A stretch of 22,488 nucleotides of DNA from a virus: positions 1 through 22,488 of IMG/VR virus record IMGVR_UViG_3300042357_000266; one strand, given 5' to 3'. The position numbers and the translations under genes are program-made. The notes beneath the pieces are model-generated. The model was given only the letters and a program-made list of their open reading frames with translations. It was not told the DNA's origin and did no database searches. Shown piece by piece: positions 8,427-22,114 of this stretch. Each line of letters opens with the position of its first letter. Position 1 is the first letter of the stretch.

Positions 8427-8517
8427 CCGAGGGGGGTCTTCGATTGCCGCGTGTCGCAAAGCCATGCGTGGCAATCGGTTGGCTGCCAGTCGAAGACTGG
8501 GCCAGGCCGCCCCCCCC
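8420..8517 (-). ncRNA. long imperfect palindrome, candidate structured leader or small RNA
   Basis: Nested complementary arms: a G run at 8420-8426 with a C run at 8510-8517; GTCTTCGA (8436-8443) with TCGAAGAC (8490-8497); GATTGCC (8442-8448) with GGCAATC (8470-8476). On the minus strand the structure ends just before a U tract at 8409-8404, so a leftward transcript would be a folded RNA of roughly 110 bases with a terminator-like end. There is no protein-coding support here, and I see no match to a known RNA family by eye. It could equally be a DNA cruciform used at an origin. Confidence 0.4.
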
Positions 8518-8570
8518 AATCCCGCACGCGCGCAATTCACGTTCCCCGCCTGGATTTTCCCCCATTTTGG

Positions 8571-8666
8571 AATCGGGTTACCTGCTCTGGAATCGGGTTA
8601 CCTACACGCTGAGCCCCGGTTACCTCCCCTGAACTCGGGTTACCTTCCCTGCTGTCCCGGTTACCT
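8571..8666 (+). repeat. array of five GGTTACCT boxes at two-turn spacing
   Basis: GGTTACCT occurs at 8576, 8596, 8618, 8638 and 8659, that is at steps of 20, 22, 20 and 21 bases, about two helical turns, always in the same orientation. Flanks are partly conserved (GGAATCGGGTTACCT twice, then CCCCGGTTACCT, CTCGGGTTACCT, TCCCGGTTACCT). Weaker boxes follow at 8719 (AGTTACCT) and 8736 (AGTAACC). The array ends 2 bases before the promoter-like motif of the HNH gene. It looks like an iteron or operator array for a DNA-binding protein. Confidence 0.85.
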
Positions 8667-8667
8667 G

Positions 8668-8690
8668 CTCCCTGGTCCGACACTTACGGG
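8668..8690 (+). promoter_or_regulatory. promoter-like motif 1 (CGACACTTACGGG)
   Basis: CTGGTCCGACACTTACG here is part of a 21-base stretch identical to 13217-13237; it is followed by GGG. The core CGACA-N-WWA-Y-GG is shared with sites at 9515, 18982 and 22097. It lies 63 bases before the HNH start and directly after the GGTTACCT array. Short, rigid and position-specific, it resembles promoters of phage single-subunit RNA polymerases in style more than a bacterial -35/-10 pair, but the polymerase is not in this window. Confidence 0.55.
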
Positions 8691-8752
8691 ACCACGCACT
8701 GCATGAGACAACCCCGCCAGTTACCTGCACCAAAAAGTAACCGGAGGTGGAG

Positions 8753-9274
8753 ATGAGGTTCAGTGAAACCGGGGCCAAGGTAGACCCCAGGCACGAGGCG
8801 AGGGTGGCTGCACTCTCATGGCAACGTAACCAGAACGGTTACCTTCGGCACTACAAGAAGGTAACCGGCAAGACCAAGAACATGTTCGCCATGCACCAGT
8901 ACGTCTGGTTCCTGGAGCATGGCGAGTGGGTCAAGGGGCTCGACCACATCAACGGTGATCCCACTGATAACCGGCTGGAGAACCTGAGAAAGGTAACCAG
9001 GAAGACCAAGGTTGCCGTCGTGAAGGTAACCAAGGCAGACAGCGAGAAGGTAACCAACCAGGAGTCACTCCAGGCTGCCCTCGACTTCTTTGGTGCTGCC
9101 GTAGTCAGCGAGGACCTGGCGACACAACTCTCGGAAGCCCGAGAAGAACGAGGTTGTGTCGCTGTCGCTGCTGTCGCTGGTGGCAAACACGCTGCCACGG
9201 TGCCGCCCGGTGATCTGACGCTCTCGTCGGACCAGATCATGGACGCCTGGCACCAGGCATGGGGGCAAGCATGA
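8753..9274 (+). CDS. HNH endonuclease (HNH_3-like)
   Basis: 173 aa from ATG 8753, with CCGGAGGTGGAG directly upstream; GTG 8747 lies within that ribosome site and is unlikely. His 48 and the block LDHINGDPTDNRLENLR at residues 63-79 are the HNH signature of phage homing-type endonucleases. These nick or cut double-stranded DNA using a single metal ion. The basic region around the core contains K-V-T four times (residues 36-38, 80-82, 91-93, 99-101), always encoded AAG GTA ACC, so each repeats the GGTAACC box found upstream. The C-terminal 70 residues are Ala-rich and unassigned. It is the first rightward gene and overlaps the next gene by ATGA. It could be a free-standing homing enzyme or a packaging-associated HNH protein. 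Confidence 0.88.
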   Translation: MRFSETGAKVDPRHEARVAALSWQRNQNGYLRHYKKVTGKTKNMFAMHQYVWFLEHGEWVKGLDHINGDPTDNRLENLRKVTRKTKVAVVKVTKADSEKVTNQESLQAALDFFGAAVVSEDLATQLSEAREERGCVAVAAVAGGKHAATVPPGDLTLSSDQIMDAWHQAWGQA

Positions 9275-9514: not shown

Positions 9515-9534
9515 CTTGGCGACATAAATGGGGG
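9515..9534 (+). promoter_or_regulatory. promoter-like motif 2 (GCGACATAAATGGGG)
   Basis: GCGACATAAATGGGG is repeated exactly at 22100-22114 and aligns with the CGACAYTTACGGG sites. It lies between the 75-aa gene and the Tat-signal gene, 17 bases before the start codon at 9551, in a spacer of 52 bases. Confidence 0.55.
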
Positions 9535-9550: not shown

Positions 9551-10474
9551 ATGCCGAGTTACATCAAGCTGCTCCAGGGTCTCGTCGGGCAGGCACCGCC
9601 GAAGATCAACCGCCGGGACTTCCTGAAGAAGACTGGGGTACTGGCAGCTGCTGCAACACCGCTTGCCGCCAAGCTCCCCGAAGCACTTCCCGAGGTCGCC
9701 CAGCAAGCCGCCAGAGTCAGGCCCGATCTCCTGCCGCCTGGCTTGATGGACGGGTTCGGTCTTCCTGACGGCTCGATAATCACAAGGCTTGGCGACGACA
9801 TTGCCTTCGAGCCAGGCCCGCTCGCCATGGAGAACGCGAGCCTTGCTGACCTCCGCAAGTGGACAGATGCCATCGAGAGAGCCAGGCGGGCAATGGGCGA
9901 CGAGGCTGCCTCCGGAGTAGTGTCGCACTTCAATCACCTCACCAACACCTGGCATGCACCAGTGCTGGAGCGTGTAGGTGAAGACGGAGACGACTTGTAT
10001 CGAACGCACTACCTGCGAGCTGGCCAGAGTGCGCCAGACAACCTGGCTGATGGCTGGTCACCGGCTGACCCCCACACGCAAACGTATTTCGATGAGAACC
10101 TGGCCTTTGGGGAAGGCATCGACGAGAACACGGTCAGGAACTTGACCGATGAGTGGAAGAAATGGAAAAGCTACGACCTCCAGGCTTCGCTGGACAAGCA
10201 TCCCAAGAGCCGGGAGGCCCACAAGAAGCAGATGGCCGAGAACCCGAAGTACCGGCAAAACCACATCGAGGCTCTCCAGGCGTTCGAGCTTGCCCCCGGT
10301 GGCCGGGCCGACCAGCAGCCGGTCATGGACATTGACCCAGACCCCTACCGCAGGGGCACGATCGACAAGAAGTGGGGCCGGATGCCAGCAGTGCCGTTCG
10401 AGCGAGTCGGCAAAGGCACATTCCTGTCTGCCCCCCTTGGTGCCGCACTCTTGAGTCCGCAGGAGGAACGCTGA
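9551..10474 (+). CDS. hypothetical protein with twin-arginine (Tat) signal
   Basis: 307 aa from ATG 9551 with GAAGGAG 8 bases upstream. Residues 20-27 are NRRDFLKK, matching the Tat consensus (S/T)RRxFLK closely, followed by a hydrophobic segment GVLAAAATPLAA and a possible AxA cleavage region near residue 40. Tat signals direct folded proteins across the cytoplasmic membrane. The remainder is soluble, rich in Asp, Pro and His (DGWSPADPHTQTYFDENLAF), without a recognisable domain. Gene position at the head of a rightward block, with a TGATG junction to a zincin, suggests a virion or lysis-related protein. It could be a structural protein whose N-terminus mimics a Tat signal; only localisation would tell. 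Confidence 0.8.
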   Translation: MPSYIKLLQGLVGQAPPKINRRDFLKKTGVLAAAATPLAAKLPEALPEVAQQAARVRPDLLPPGLMDGFGLPDGSIITRLGDDIAFEPGPLAMENASLADLRKWTDAIERARRAMGDEAASGVVSHFNHLTNTWHAPVLERVGEDGDDLYRTHYLRAGQSAPDNLADGWSPADPHTQTYFDENLAFGEGIDENTVRNLTDEWKKWKSYDLQASLDKHPKSREAHKKQMAENPKYRQNHIEALQAFELAPGGRADQQPVMDIDPDPYRRGTIDKKWGRMPAVPFERVGKGTFLSAPLGAALLSPQEER

Positions 10475-14391: not shown

Positions 14392-15513
14392 ATGCCGTCG
14401 TCCACCGACTGGGCTCGTAGCATTGGCACCACGATCATCCAGTACCTGCGGCAGGAAGAGCTGAACACCTTCCGCAAGTTCAAGGTGTTCGCCGCTCTCG
14501 AAGCATCGGGCAACGTCCTGATGAATCAATCTGGAAGAGGAATCCAGTGGCAGATCCGTTACCGGAATGTTCCAGTTTCGGGAAACAACGGTGAGACTCC
14601 CCGAGTCTTCGCCCGCCAGAACCTCTGGGTGGACGCCGAGCTTCCGTTCCGTGGCTACCAAGTCCCCGACAGCATCTACAAGAAGGAGATGCTCGAAAAC
14701 CGGGGCCAGCAGGCTCTCATCAACGTCGCCGGGAAGATGGCAACCCGGCTCCAGGAGAGCATGGAACAGCACCTCGGGCATGAGGTGTGGGTTGACGGCA
14801 ACCTGCCGGGGAATGAACTGCGGTTCCACGGCATCGAGTCGATGATGGGCATCGACGGCACCGTCAACATCAACGACGGCACCAAGCGGGTTGCCAACGC
14901 CGAAGACATGTTCGGCTGGCCCGCCGACGTCTACGCCACGGTCAACACCGGTCTCGGTGCGGTGGCTGGCTCCCAGCACCCCGGCAGCTCGTGGCCGAAT
15001 GGCACCTGCGACCCCGAGTACGACTTCTACTCTCCGGTCGTGGTGAATTACACCTCGACCAGCTTCAAGGGTGGTACCACCCCGACCTGGCAGGAGAACT
15101 GCGTTCAGGCCGTCCGCGAGGGCATCAACCAGGCCAAGCGCAACGACACCAAGGAATCCCAGATCGACATGGTCATCGTCGATCGCAAGATGTACATCGA
15201 GTACATGAACAAGCTGGATTCCAAGGAACGGATCCTCGCCAACAACAACGAGGGTCTCCGGTCCTACGGCTTCAAGGACGTCTTCCAGCAGGACGGCGTG
15301 GACGTCAGCACGGAATACGCTGTCCCGAAGGGGTGTGGGTACGGTCTCTCCATCGCAAACATGGAGATGAGGTGCATGGAAGGCAACCTGATGACTCCCG
15401 AGGGTCCGTTCTACAACGAGGAACTTCAGTCTTACAGGTATGTCGTCTCCGTCCTCGCCAACCTCCGGTTCAAGAGCCCGAGGAACTTCTTCAAGCTCCA
15501 GGCCATCGCCTGA
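14392..15513 (+). CDS. probable major capsid protein
   Basis: 373 aa, start ATG 14392 with AGAAGGAT 4-5 bases upstream, 12 bases after the scaffold gene. It lacks low complexity and has the look of an HK97-fold coat protein: an N-terminal helix (WARSIGTTIIQYLRQEELNT), a strand-rich region with basic loop (RGIQWQIRYRNVPVSG), a long spine-like helix (LINVAGKMATRLQESMEQHL), and a C-terminal strand block (LQSYRYVVSVLANLRFKSP). Asp-Met-Val-Ile-Val-Asp near residue 262 fits the A-domain strand where such proteins name a residue in the assembly interface. Following a scaffold and followed by a decoration-like gene supports the call. The exact family is not identified. Confidence 0.82.
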   Translation: MPSSTDWARSIGTTIIQYLRQEELNTFRKFKVFAALEASGNVLMNQSGRGIQWQIRYRNVPVSGNNGETPRVFARQNLWVDAELPFRGYQVPDSIYKKEMLENRGQQALINVAGKMATRLQESMEQHLGHEVWVDGNLPGNELRFHGIESMMGIDGTVNINDGTKRVANAEDMFGWPADVYATVNTGLGAVAGSQHPGSSWPNGTCDPEYDFYSPVVVNYTSTSFKGGTTPTWQENCVQAVREGINQAKRNDTKESQIDMVIVDRKMYIEYMNKLDSKERILANNNEGLRSYGFKDVFQQDGVDVSTEYAVPKGCGYGLSIANMEMRCMEGNLMTPEGPFYNEELQSYRYVVSVLANLRFKSPRNFFKLQAIA

Positions 15514-16795: not shown

Positions 16796-17509
16796 ATGGA
16801 CATCAAAGAGCAGCCAGAACAGCAGTGCGAGGAGTGCCTGAAGGTACTCCCCATGACACCCAAGTATTTCGCCGCCGCCAAGGGCTGCACCTACAAGCGG
16901 CAGCGGGTGTGCCGGAAGTGCAAGGCTGCCATGAAGCGGCAGTCTGCCCTGGGGAAGATCGAGGCTCAGGCGGTCGAGAGCTTCTGCTCCCGGACGATCT
17001 CGGGTGGTGCGAACATCCCGCACACCGCAGAGATGCTTGAGTCCATGATGAACTACTTCGGGGGAGTGAACGGATTCTCAAGCATCTGCATGAAGCAATA
17101 CTGGGACGCCAAGCCCGGAAGCAGGATCAGGTCGGGAATCCTGGAGATGGTCGTTCGTCTCGCCACGAAGAACACCGAGGCGGGCGGGGCCAAGAAGCCC
17201 ATCGACCTGTACACGGAAGAGGAACTGGAAGCAGAAATCACCCAGCGGATCGAGAACGTGATCCTGCTGAACCAAGGAAGGGTTCTCGATGTCATCCCGC
17301 AAGCACCCACCGGTTCCACCGCCTTCCCCGCTCCCGAATGTGAACTCCCTCTCGGGCTATCAGATCGACGAACTCAAGAGCTTGCAGAGCGAGCTTTCGG
17401 AACGCCGGATGGAGTCCTTGAGGCTGTACTGTCCAACGCCCAAGCAATGGGACTACCACCAAGACAGAGCGAGCGAGACCCTGGTGATCGGGGGGAATCG
17501 GTCGGGTAA
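16796..17509 (+). CDS. zinc-ribbon protein, candidate terminase small subunit
   Basis: 237 aa from ATG 16796 (GTG 16790 overlapping the upstream stop is less likely). Residues 11-14 (CEEC) and 39-42 (CRKC) form a C-x2-C-x24-C-x2-C zinc-binding pair with basic residues between (CTYKRQRVCRKCKAAMKRQ), a likely nucleic-acid-binding ribbon. The middle is helical (AEMLESMMNYFGGVNGF, YTEEELEAEITQRIENVIL). Directly upstream of the large terminase, a DNA-binding helical protein is the natural small-terminase candidate, which recognises and presents DNA for packaging; zinc ribbons are not universal in that family. Its last 221 bases overlap the large terminase gene in a different frame; without that tail it would be about 164 residues. 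Confidence 0.7.
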   Translation: MDIKEQPEQQCEECLKVLPMTPKYFAAAKGCTYKRQRVCRKCKAAMKRQSALGKIEAQAVESFCSRTISGGANIPHTAEMLESMMNYFGGVNGFSSICMKQYWDAKPGSRIRSGILEMVVRLATKNTEAGGAKKPIDLYTEEELEAEITQRIENVILLNQGRVLDVIPQAPTGSTAFPAPECELPLGLSDRRTQELAERAFGTPDGVLEAVLSNAQAMGLPPRQSERDPGDRGESVG

Positions 17510-18983
17510 GTCCCTCTGCACGTTCGTGGAGGACGCATGGGCTGCCACAGGTACCCATCCCGTCGAAGGCAAATACCCCAAAGAGGGCGGGAACCTCATC
17601 ATCGTCGGTGCCAACTGGAAGCACATCGGACTGGTGGTCGTGCCCTACCTGTTCAAGGCCGGGGCCTTCAAGATCATCAAGGACAAGACCACCGGGAAGT
17701 GGCGGGCGTTCAACCCAGCCCTGCTCGGGGACCTGGAGCGGGAGAAGCAGGCTAAACCAGCCCCACCGCTCATCCCGCCCCGGATGATCAAGAGCTACTC
17801 CTGGCTCTTGAAGTCTGCCGGTTACCTCAACTCCTGCGAACTGGTAAACGGCTGGACCATCTACTGCTTCAGTTCTGAAGGCGATCCGCCCCAGGGCTTC
17901 CAGGCTGACAGGGTCCACATCGACGAGGACATCAACAACGAGCAGTGGGTCCCCGAAATGCAGGCCCGGCTTGCTGACCGAAAGGGGAGGTTCACCTGGT
18001 CGGCCATGCCCCACTCGAAGAATGACGCCTTGCTGGGGCTCAACGAGCGGGCCGACAAGGCAGAGGAGTCAGGAAGCAGTGACATCAAGAGGTACGTCTT
18101 GAGGTTCCTGGATAACCCTCACATCGACGAGAACGAGAAGAGGAAGATGATCGAGCGGTGGGCAGCCGTGGGCGAGGATGTCCTCAAGCAGCGGTCGGAG
18201 GGCGAGTTCAACACCGACTCGATCAAGGTCTACCCGAACTTCAACATGTCGGTTCACGGTCTGTCTAGAGAGACACTGGCAGGCTCATGTGTTCCCCCGG
18301 ACTGGTGCCGGTACGCCGTCATCGACCCCGGCCACTCGGTCACCGCAGTTCTTTTCGCCGCAGTTCCGCCCGACGAGCGGATGGTGCTGGTCTACGACGA
18401 GCTGTACATCAGGCACTGCAACGCCATCATCTTCGGCCAGGAGCTGCTCAAGAAGGTAACCGGAACTCAGTTCTATGCCTTCCTGATCGACGCCCATGGT
18501 GCCCGCCTGACTGACATTGGTTCAGGCAAGTCGCCCCAGGAGCAGTACACCGAGCAGATGGTGAAGCACAACATCCGCTCCCAGGCCACCGGATCGAGCT
18601 TCATCCCCGGCTCCGACGACGTTCAGGCTGGTCTGTCTGCCGTCCGCAACATGATGCACATCCGCCCGGACGGCACCCCCAAGCTCCGGTTCCTCAGGGG
18701 CTGCCTGCCCAACATGGAGCGGGAGATGAAGCTCTACAAGAAGAAGGTGCAGTACGTCGCCGGGACCTCGATCGTCACCGATGAACCCAACAAGCGGGGC
18801 GACTTCCACCTCGTGGACTGCCTGCGGTACCTGTGTGCCTACGAACCCCGGTATCACGCCCCCCACCGGCAGTCAGACGACCCCTGGTGGGTGAAGTGGA
18901 AACAGGACAGAGACAAAGCCAAGGGGAACAACGGAGTGGTTTACCTGGCACCCAACTCATACACGGAGACCTGGGTCGCGTGA
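17289..18983 (+). CDS. terL: terminase large subunit
   Basis: 564 aa, the motor that drives DNA into the head and cuts it. The ATPase half has Walker A VIGGNRSGKS (residues 66-75), Walker B RVHIDED (208-214) and a coupling segment TWSAMPHSKND. The nuclease half has the RNase H-like acidic residues Asp 346 in VIDPGHS, Asp 401 in LIDAHGAR and Asp 510 in HLVDCLRY. ATG 17289 has AAGGAAGGG 7-8 bases upstream. The first 20 residues are Ser/Pro-rich and coincide with the overlap on the upstream gene, consistent with a late-added N-terminus. One AAGGTAACC box (18453) and one GGTTACCT (17820) lie in this gene. Confidence 0.97.
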   Translation: MSSRKHPPVPPPSPLPNVNSLSGYQIDELKSLQSELSERRMESLRLYCPTPKQWDYHQDRASETLVIGGNRSGKSLCTFVEDAWAATGTHPVEGKYPKEGGNLIIVGANWKHIGLVVVPYLFKAGAFKIIKDKTTGKWRAFNPALLGDLEREKQAKPAPPLIPPRMIKSYSWLLKSAGYLNSCELVNGWTIYCFSSEGDPPQGFQADRVHIDEDINNEQWVPEMQARLADRKGRFTWSAMPHSKNDALLGLNERADKAEESGSSDIKRYVLRFLDNPHIDENEKRKMIERWAAVGEDVLKQRSEGEFNTDSIKVYPNFNMSVHGLSRETLAGSCVPPDWCRYAVIDPGHSVTAVLFAAVPPDERMVLVYDELYIRHCNAIIFGQELLKKVTGTQFYAFLIDAHGARLTDIGSGKSPQEQYTEQMVKHNIRSQATGSSFIPGSDDVQAGLSAVRNMMHIRPDGTPKLRFLRGCLPNMEREMKLYKKKVQYVAGTSIVTDEPNKRGDFHLVDCLRYLCAYEPRYHAPHRQSDDPWWVKWKQDRDKAKGNNGVVYLAPNSYTETWVA

Positions 18984-22096: not shown

Positions 22097-22114
22097 GTTG
22101 CGACATAAATGGGG
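22097..22114 (+). promoter_or_regulatory. promoter-like motif 5 (GCGACATAAATGGGG)
   Basis: An exact copy of motif 2 (9519-9533), 29 bases before the start of the 104-aa gene, in the 60-base spacer after the 181-aa gene. Confidence 0.55.

Follow-up and report, generated by a model that had tools for sequence, protein, structure and literature searches.

A repeated word before and within a small gene at the operon junction of an uncultivated phage: a candidate origin or control element with a different word in each relative

In lambda-type origins of replication, the middle of gene O carries iterons together with an AT-rich tract (PMC7466680). The stoperators of mycobacteriophages L5 and Bxb1 are short phage-specific sites whose consensus sequence differs between the two relatives (PMC6550527), while the homing endonuclease I-TevI represses its own gene by way of an operator that overlaps its late promoter (PMC2988022). 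The small terminase of HK97 recognizes a site with an A-tract 15-29 bp past the cut, and in vitro the HNH protein gp74 enhances cleavage at cos (PMC11331095). The locus described here resembles each of these systems in some features and differs in others.

The window, which is the whole stretch of DNA analysed, is a 22.5-kb viral contig (22,488 nt). Its left genes are transcribed leftward and code for a DUF2201/VWA-like protein, a member of a phage ATPase family and a DUF6744 protein; the DUF2201 metallopeptidase and VWA-like model matches belong to the homologue of the left protein in a circular relative, G002. The rightward genes are an HNH gene followed by those for capsid, terminase and portal, with terL located at 17289-18983. 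The conserved 373-aa protein encoded at 14392-15513 was read by us as the capsid protein from its place and conservation rather than from a family match. At the junction of the two divergent operons lies an array of short repeats, the surroundings of which contain the following features.

8510 to 8517, plus strand: C8 tract forming the left part of a junction element (C7-8, ~22 bp, ACGTTC...) that is conserved in most relatives with the junction
8538 to 8569, plus strand: block A, CACGTTCCCCGCCTGGATTTTCCCCCATTTTG, a T-rich conserved element directly 5' of the array, recognized by comparison with relatives
8576 to 8666, plus strand: upstream array, five GGTTACCT at steps of 20, 22, 20 and 21, from a word search
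8719 to 8742, plus strand: two near-copies just 5' of the HNH gene, AGTTACCT (8719-8726) and AAGTAACC (8735-8742), seen in the sequence and as repeat families D3 and D8
8753 to 9274, plus strand: HNH gene, an HNH_3 domain followed by the tail GGKHAATVPPGDLTLSSDQIMDAW common to the relatives' cassette proteins, from family and profile matches
8824 to 8866, plus strand: in-gene near-copy ACGTAACC (8824), exact GGTTACC (8837, Gly-Tyr-Leu) and exact GGTAACC (8860, Lys-Val-Thr, KVT)
8992 to 9055, plus strand: in-gene copies at 8992, 9025 and 9049, each AAG GTA ACC (KVT)
9518 to 9534, plus strand: block B, GGCGACATAAATGGGGG, which marks the right-hand limit of the cassette slot ahead of the first late gene; also found in L132

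The HNH gene probably starts at the ATG at 8753, which is preceded by GGAGG, a GTG at 8747 being a possible alternative. Ten exact copies of GGTWACC were located between 8576 and 9055, at the positions and with the upstream steps given in the initial annotation. An exact count over the window gave 12, the other two (17820 and 18455) being in terL, again as reported there. The full word is an 8-mer, present as GGTTACCT in direct orientation upstream and mostly as the complement AGGTAACC in the HNH gene, and three near-copies accompany it. The suspicion that so many copies exceed chance was borne out: dinucleotide shuffles of the window (n=100) contained on average 0.94 and at most 3 copies against the 12 observed, and shuffles of the 963-bp cassette (n=500) had a mean of 0.11 and a maximum of 2, which excludes chance as the origin of the array. 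Contig G003, assigned to the same phage on the basis of sampled 40-mers identical to the window from 17608 onward, extends it by 27.8 kb and adds a single copy. Over the window and this 27.8 kb the word is not common elsewhere in the genome, the outcome that the initial annotation had named as a refutation, and confinement to one locus argues against a genome-wide operator or restriction word.

Within the HNH gene, four of the five exact copies read AAG GTA ACC, while that at 8837 reads GGT TAC C; the AAG GTA ACC reading (KVT) recurs in the terL copy at 18455. GTA, suspected to be uncommon, makes up 4.9% of the Val codons in the other genes of the window, and codon usage predicts that all four KVT of the gene would be spelled AAG-GTA-ACC with a probability of ~3e-7. 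Synonymous codon resampling of the HNH gene (20,000 trials) gave a mean of 0.59 copies and never reached five (0/20,000). Peptide-level selection is therefore excluded, and it is the DNA word rather than the peptide that is kept, as the initial annotation had proposed. The array very probably represents protein-binding sites acting at the DNA level, a prediction from the sequence, and the repeats would then be putative sites of a phage-encoded DNA-binding protein, selected as DNA.

Related phages carry arrays of the same kind in other words. The L128 gene is 99% identical to the HNH gene and its array is kept. In L129, whose terminase is 81% identical, GGTWACC is missing from the region; in the same slot, its gene and the DNA upstream contain 13 copies of GTAGTCAC/GTGACTAC, and the gene shares the HNH-gene tail GGKHAATV..GD..L..DQ.M.AW. 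Absence of the array from a relative, a case foreseen in the initial annotation, is thus only apparent here, since the array has been rewritten in another word although GGTWACC is missing. Four more cassettes were found via capsid-based relatives, L197 with the aid of a protein profile.

L166: word TGTGAAC, 9 copies
L184: word GATAACG, 8 copies
L190: word CGTTACA, 6 copies
L197: word CCTGTG, 8 copies

In total there are six cassettes, represented by one or two contigs each, in which the cassette's own word occurs ~6-13 times before and within one small gene. Five of the six were first noticed by word clustering, with the protein link made later, L197 being the one found through its protein. 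Copies stand both upstream of and inside the gene in all six, those inside being mostly in a single frame (e.g. SVNP, SEIT, VVT, KVT). Both orientations of the word occur within the window cassette, and the orientation of upstream relative to in-gene copies varies among cassettes. The word-by-phage matrix was nearly diagonal, words being essentially missing from the other cassettes; as exceptions, L166 and L197 overlap in part and L184 has two bare CCTGTG. With word limits of our choosing, the words were more alike than their shuffled versions (23/3000). The two-turn phasing claimed for the array holds for the upstream copies of the window and partly for L184; as it is absent from the other relatives, the phasing does not define the array. 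Where a private word is rewritten in concert, in a control region and in codons, the simplest and likeliest reading is that it is bound by a sequence-specific phage protein of drifting specificity. A shared slot and related genes with six words amount to a natural experiment on joint specificity change, which addresses how a DNA-binding protein and some ten sites, half of them in codons, can change specificity together.

The cassette proteins are related. A profile built from those of L166, L184, L190 and L129 matched L197 (E 2e-11), the window gene (E 3e-5) and L172 (E 3e-5 to 5e-5), the last of which has both gene halves and no words; the tail of the HNH gene also matched the L129 cassette protein directly (E 2e-7). 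The domain matches of the HNH gene were PF13392 (E 2e-11) and phrog_99 (E 2e-16), and among the cassettes this domain was present in the window and L128 only. In four relatives it is replaced by a helical-hairpin-type N-terminus (YCKxYYxRLKxDPxK), and in L190 by a related basic stretch. Because these five relatives have the same kind of array, the HNH nuclease domain is not a constant part of the cassette, and the HNH protein, one of the candidates initially put forward, is a putative binder. An AF2 model of the L166 protein (seven sequences, pTM 0.33) put the words in a low-confidence stretch between the helical hairpin and the C-terminal helix; three exact copies of the window fall within the HNH fold itself rather than in a linker, that at 8992 coinciding with the NLRxVT position of HNH_3. 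No credible match to the small cassette protein was found among solved structures, neither the window gene nor the cassette proteins matched Phage_rep_O or HTH_36, and eight records of the phage family yielded no HTH_36 initiator. The EYDGGL motif of L129 was rejected as a replication tag, its matches being mostly hypothetical proteins. Stand-alone, word-free YCKAWYxRLK N-terminal domains are encoded in L129 (629-796) and L172 (4940-5077).

The slot lies between the conserved junction element and the late operon, and in five relatives it contains a small gene related to the HNH-gene tail. In L132 two ACAGGGGGTCCCCAGCA, weak evidence when taken alone, follow the junction element, and block B comes ~130 bp past block A with no gene between. 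Other relatives have a slot that opens with an SSB-like gene or another small gene. Given the gene-free slot of L132 and these other occupants, array and gene form an accessory cassette, made up of an upstream array of sites and then a small gene with further in-frame sites. SSB-like genes, assigned from reading the translation, stand first or early after block A in four cassette-free relatives (L257, 1870-2241; L271, 8088-8519; L281, 4541-4924; L265, 507-1034).

The junction element (C7-8, ~22 bp, ACGTTCcCCtCCtGGATTTTTTCC) is common to carriers and non-carriers of the cassette. Block A, which contains a T6 tract, also occurs without words, and many relatives that have it lack the cassette; in L129 it was not seen, the contig there stopping at a C9 tract immediately 5' of the array. 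The element (C7-8, ~22 bp, ACGTTCCCCTCCTGGATTTTTTCC) was mapped to 8510-8569 in the window, 1 in L128, 14154-14176 in L278, 1 in L129, 1 in L184 and 1-75 in L190. Several contigs end in or beside it, and it may be a genome end (cos), a promoter or the core of an origin. Several repeats in related contigs were set aside as being of different kinds: at least seven AACTGC..GCAGTT hairpins left of block A in the near-identical relatives L183 and L187 (5156-5390), a tandem 8-bp GTGGACAA array after a small gene and 5' of the late genes in L143 (439-519), and CAGCAGTAC clusters in L210, L211, L224, L225, L228 and L230.

The closest counterpart in anatomy is the lambda origin. GGTTACC arrays brought in eleven phage contigs unrelated to the window phage: in ten (L007, L015, L017, L054, L057, L072, L077, L078, L097 and L112) the array is inside a lambda O-like initiator gene, and in L033 beside one. 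These arrays have steps of ~18-23 bp or of codon multiples, irregular as in the window, and often encode Val-Thr. Other contigs have their GGTTACC arrays near a DnaD-like gene (L060), a DnaB-like helicase (L106), the terminase small subunit (L118) or nothing recognized; in L118 four GGTTACC at 9-21 bp steps (1231-1277) lie at the start of the small subunit gene, a possible packaging site. The likeness to lambda ori (Phage_rep_O, PF04492) and to the HTH_36 O-like genes thus comprises short in-frame repeated sites, found in all six cassettes, and the word GGTTACC itself in ten unrelated phages; a possible further likeness is an AT-rich tract near the sites, for which the T-rich block A is a candidate, as it precedes the arrays but also occurs without sites and was not seen in L129. 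The cassette protein differs in having no O-type (winged HTH) domain, and by this test of membership the cassette does not belong to the lambda O family, even if its anatomy may work like one. Further differences from lambda ori are that sites lie upstream of the gene as well as within it, that the word is private to each phage within one family, and that the cassette is not universal.

Because of the ten arrays inside and the one beside O-like genes, a role like that of lambda ori is our first choice, with a probability of roughly 40%. The cassette protein would bind the words in and before its own gene, a nucleoprotein complex would assemble on these sites beside block A, and this complex would initiate or control DNA replication in the style of lambda O and its origin. 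Binder and sites would co-diverge, giving each phage its own word with the codons rewritten along. This reading agrees with the SSB gene in the same slot of several relatives, the lack of HTH_36 in the eight family records, the L166 model, the likeness of the words, the nearly diagonal matrix and the selection seen at the DNA level. Against it stand the missing initiator domain, the accessory nature of the cassette, the word-free gene halves of L172, the copies in the HNH fold of the window, the unconserved phasing and the GC skew, which showed no clear switch at the junction. A bolder reading, somewhat less likely than not, takes the cassette as a new kind of self-addressed phage control module. 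A small protein whose N-terminus is exchangeable (helical hairpin or HNH) would have its private word present 6-13 times in the control region and in its own codons, and all copies of the word would be rewritten in concert whenever specificity changes, providing each phage with its own replication or control address.

Since the cassette protein lacks an initiator domain and the cassette is dispensable, two other roles were retained. The array could be an operator, through which a repressor or activator, either an autoregulator from the cassette or an unlinked immunity-type repressor, controls the late and the divergent left operons, the in-gene copies acting as stoperator-like roadblocks. Its location between divergent operons and ahead of the late genes fits such a role, as do drifting phage-specific sites, typical of immunity repressors as in L5 and Bxb1, and the serine recombinase of G002, which suggests temperate relatives. 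Stoperators, however, are distributed across the genome with a single orientation relative to transcription, whereas the cassette sites occupy one locus in both orientations, about half of them within the gene. Neither a repressor gene nor a sigma-70-like promoter was found at the array, and a search there for known RNA families and tRNAs was also negative. The parallel with I-TevI is that possible binding sites directly precede a nuclease gene, but in the window a short word occurs ten times, half of these within the gene, and relatives do without the nuclease domain. An operator is considered somewhat unlikely, though it comes next after the origin-like role. Packaging, with the junction element as a DNA end (cos) or recognition site and the words plus the HNH or small protein providing specificity in the manner of cosB or HK97 gp74, is improbable. 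As in HK97, an HNH gene lies by a conserved A/T-tract element near contig ends, block A having its T6 tract and five contigs (L128, L278, L129, L184 and L190) ending in or beside the junction element, although homopolymer C tracts may break assemblies. The HK97-type HNH gene adjoins terS-terL and cos, whereas that of the window is 8 kb from terL; moreover the words are private, most cassettes have no HNH domain, and both the junction element without HNH and block A without words occur.

A selfish cassette, that is an HNH-type mobile gene spreading by copying and carrying its own target words without a part in phage control, would account for the HNH_3 domain of the window gene, as in HNH homing endonucleases, and for L132, whose slot without a gene is a putative empty site. 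The design is nevertheless kept in five relatives without HNH, and, with the words restricted to the cassette, such a gene has no visible outside target; this explanation is very improbable. Pairing of upstream with in-gene copies at the RNA level to control translation is hardly credible. Folding was better than in shuffles for the window region (z -3.9) and L129 (z -5.4), but no excess was seen in L184 (z 0.07), L166 (z -0.7) or L197 (z -0.8), and the relative orientation of upstream and in-gene copies is unconserved. Having no folding excess in three of the five cassettes folded, RNA pairing was rejected as a general cause.

Relatives of the capsid protein were absent from the phage-record collection and were present on MAG contigs labelled Planctomycetia and Pirellulaceae, with one Ignavibacteriales and one Gammaproteobacteria; a left-arm protein search of viral records gave no match. 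The hosts of this uncultivated phage family are probably Planctomycetes, in whose phages the cassette is a candidate origin or control element. An early gene of the late operon (9551-10474) codes for a twin-arginine signal-like N-terminus, with TAT_signal just under the cut-off. Block B (GCGACATAAATGGGG) is repeated before several rightward genes (9518-9534 and 22100-22114 in the window; 7779-7793 in L156) and is a possible promoter or leader element.
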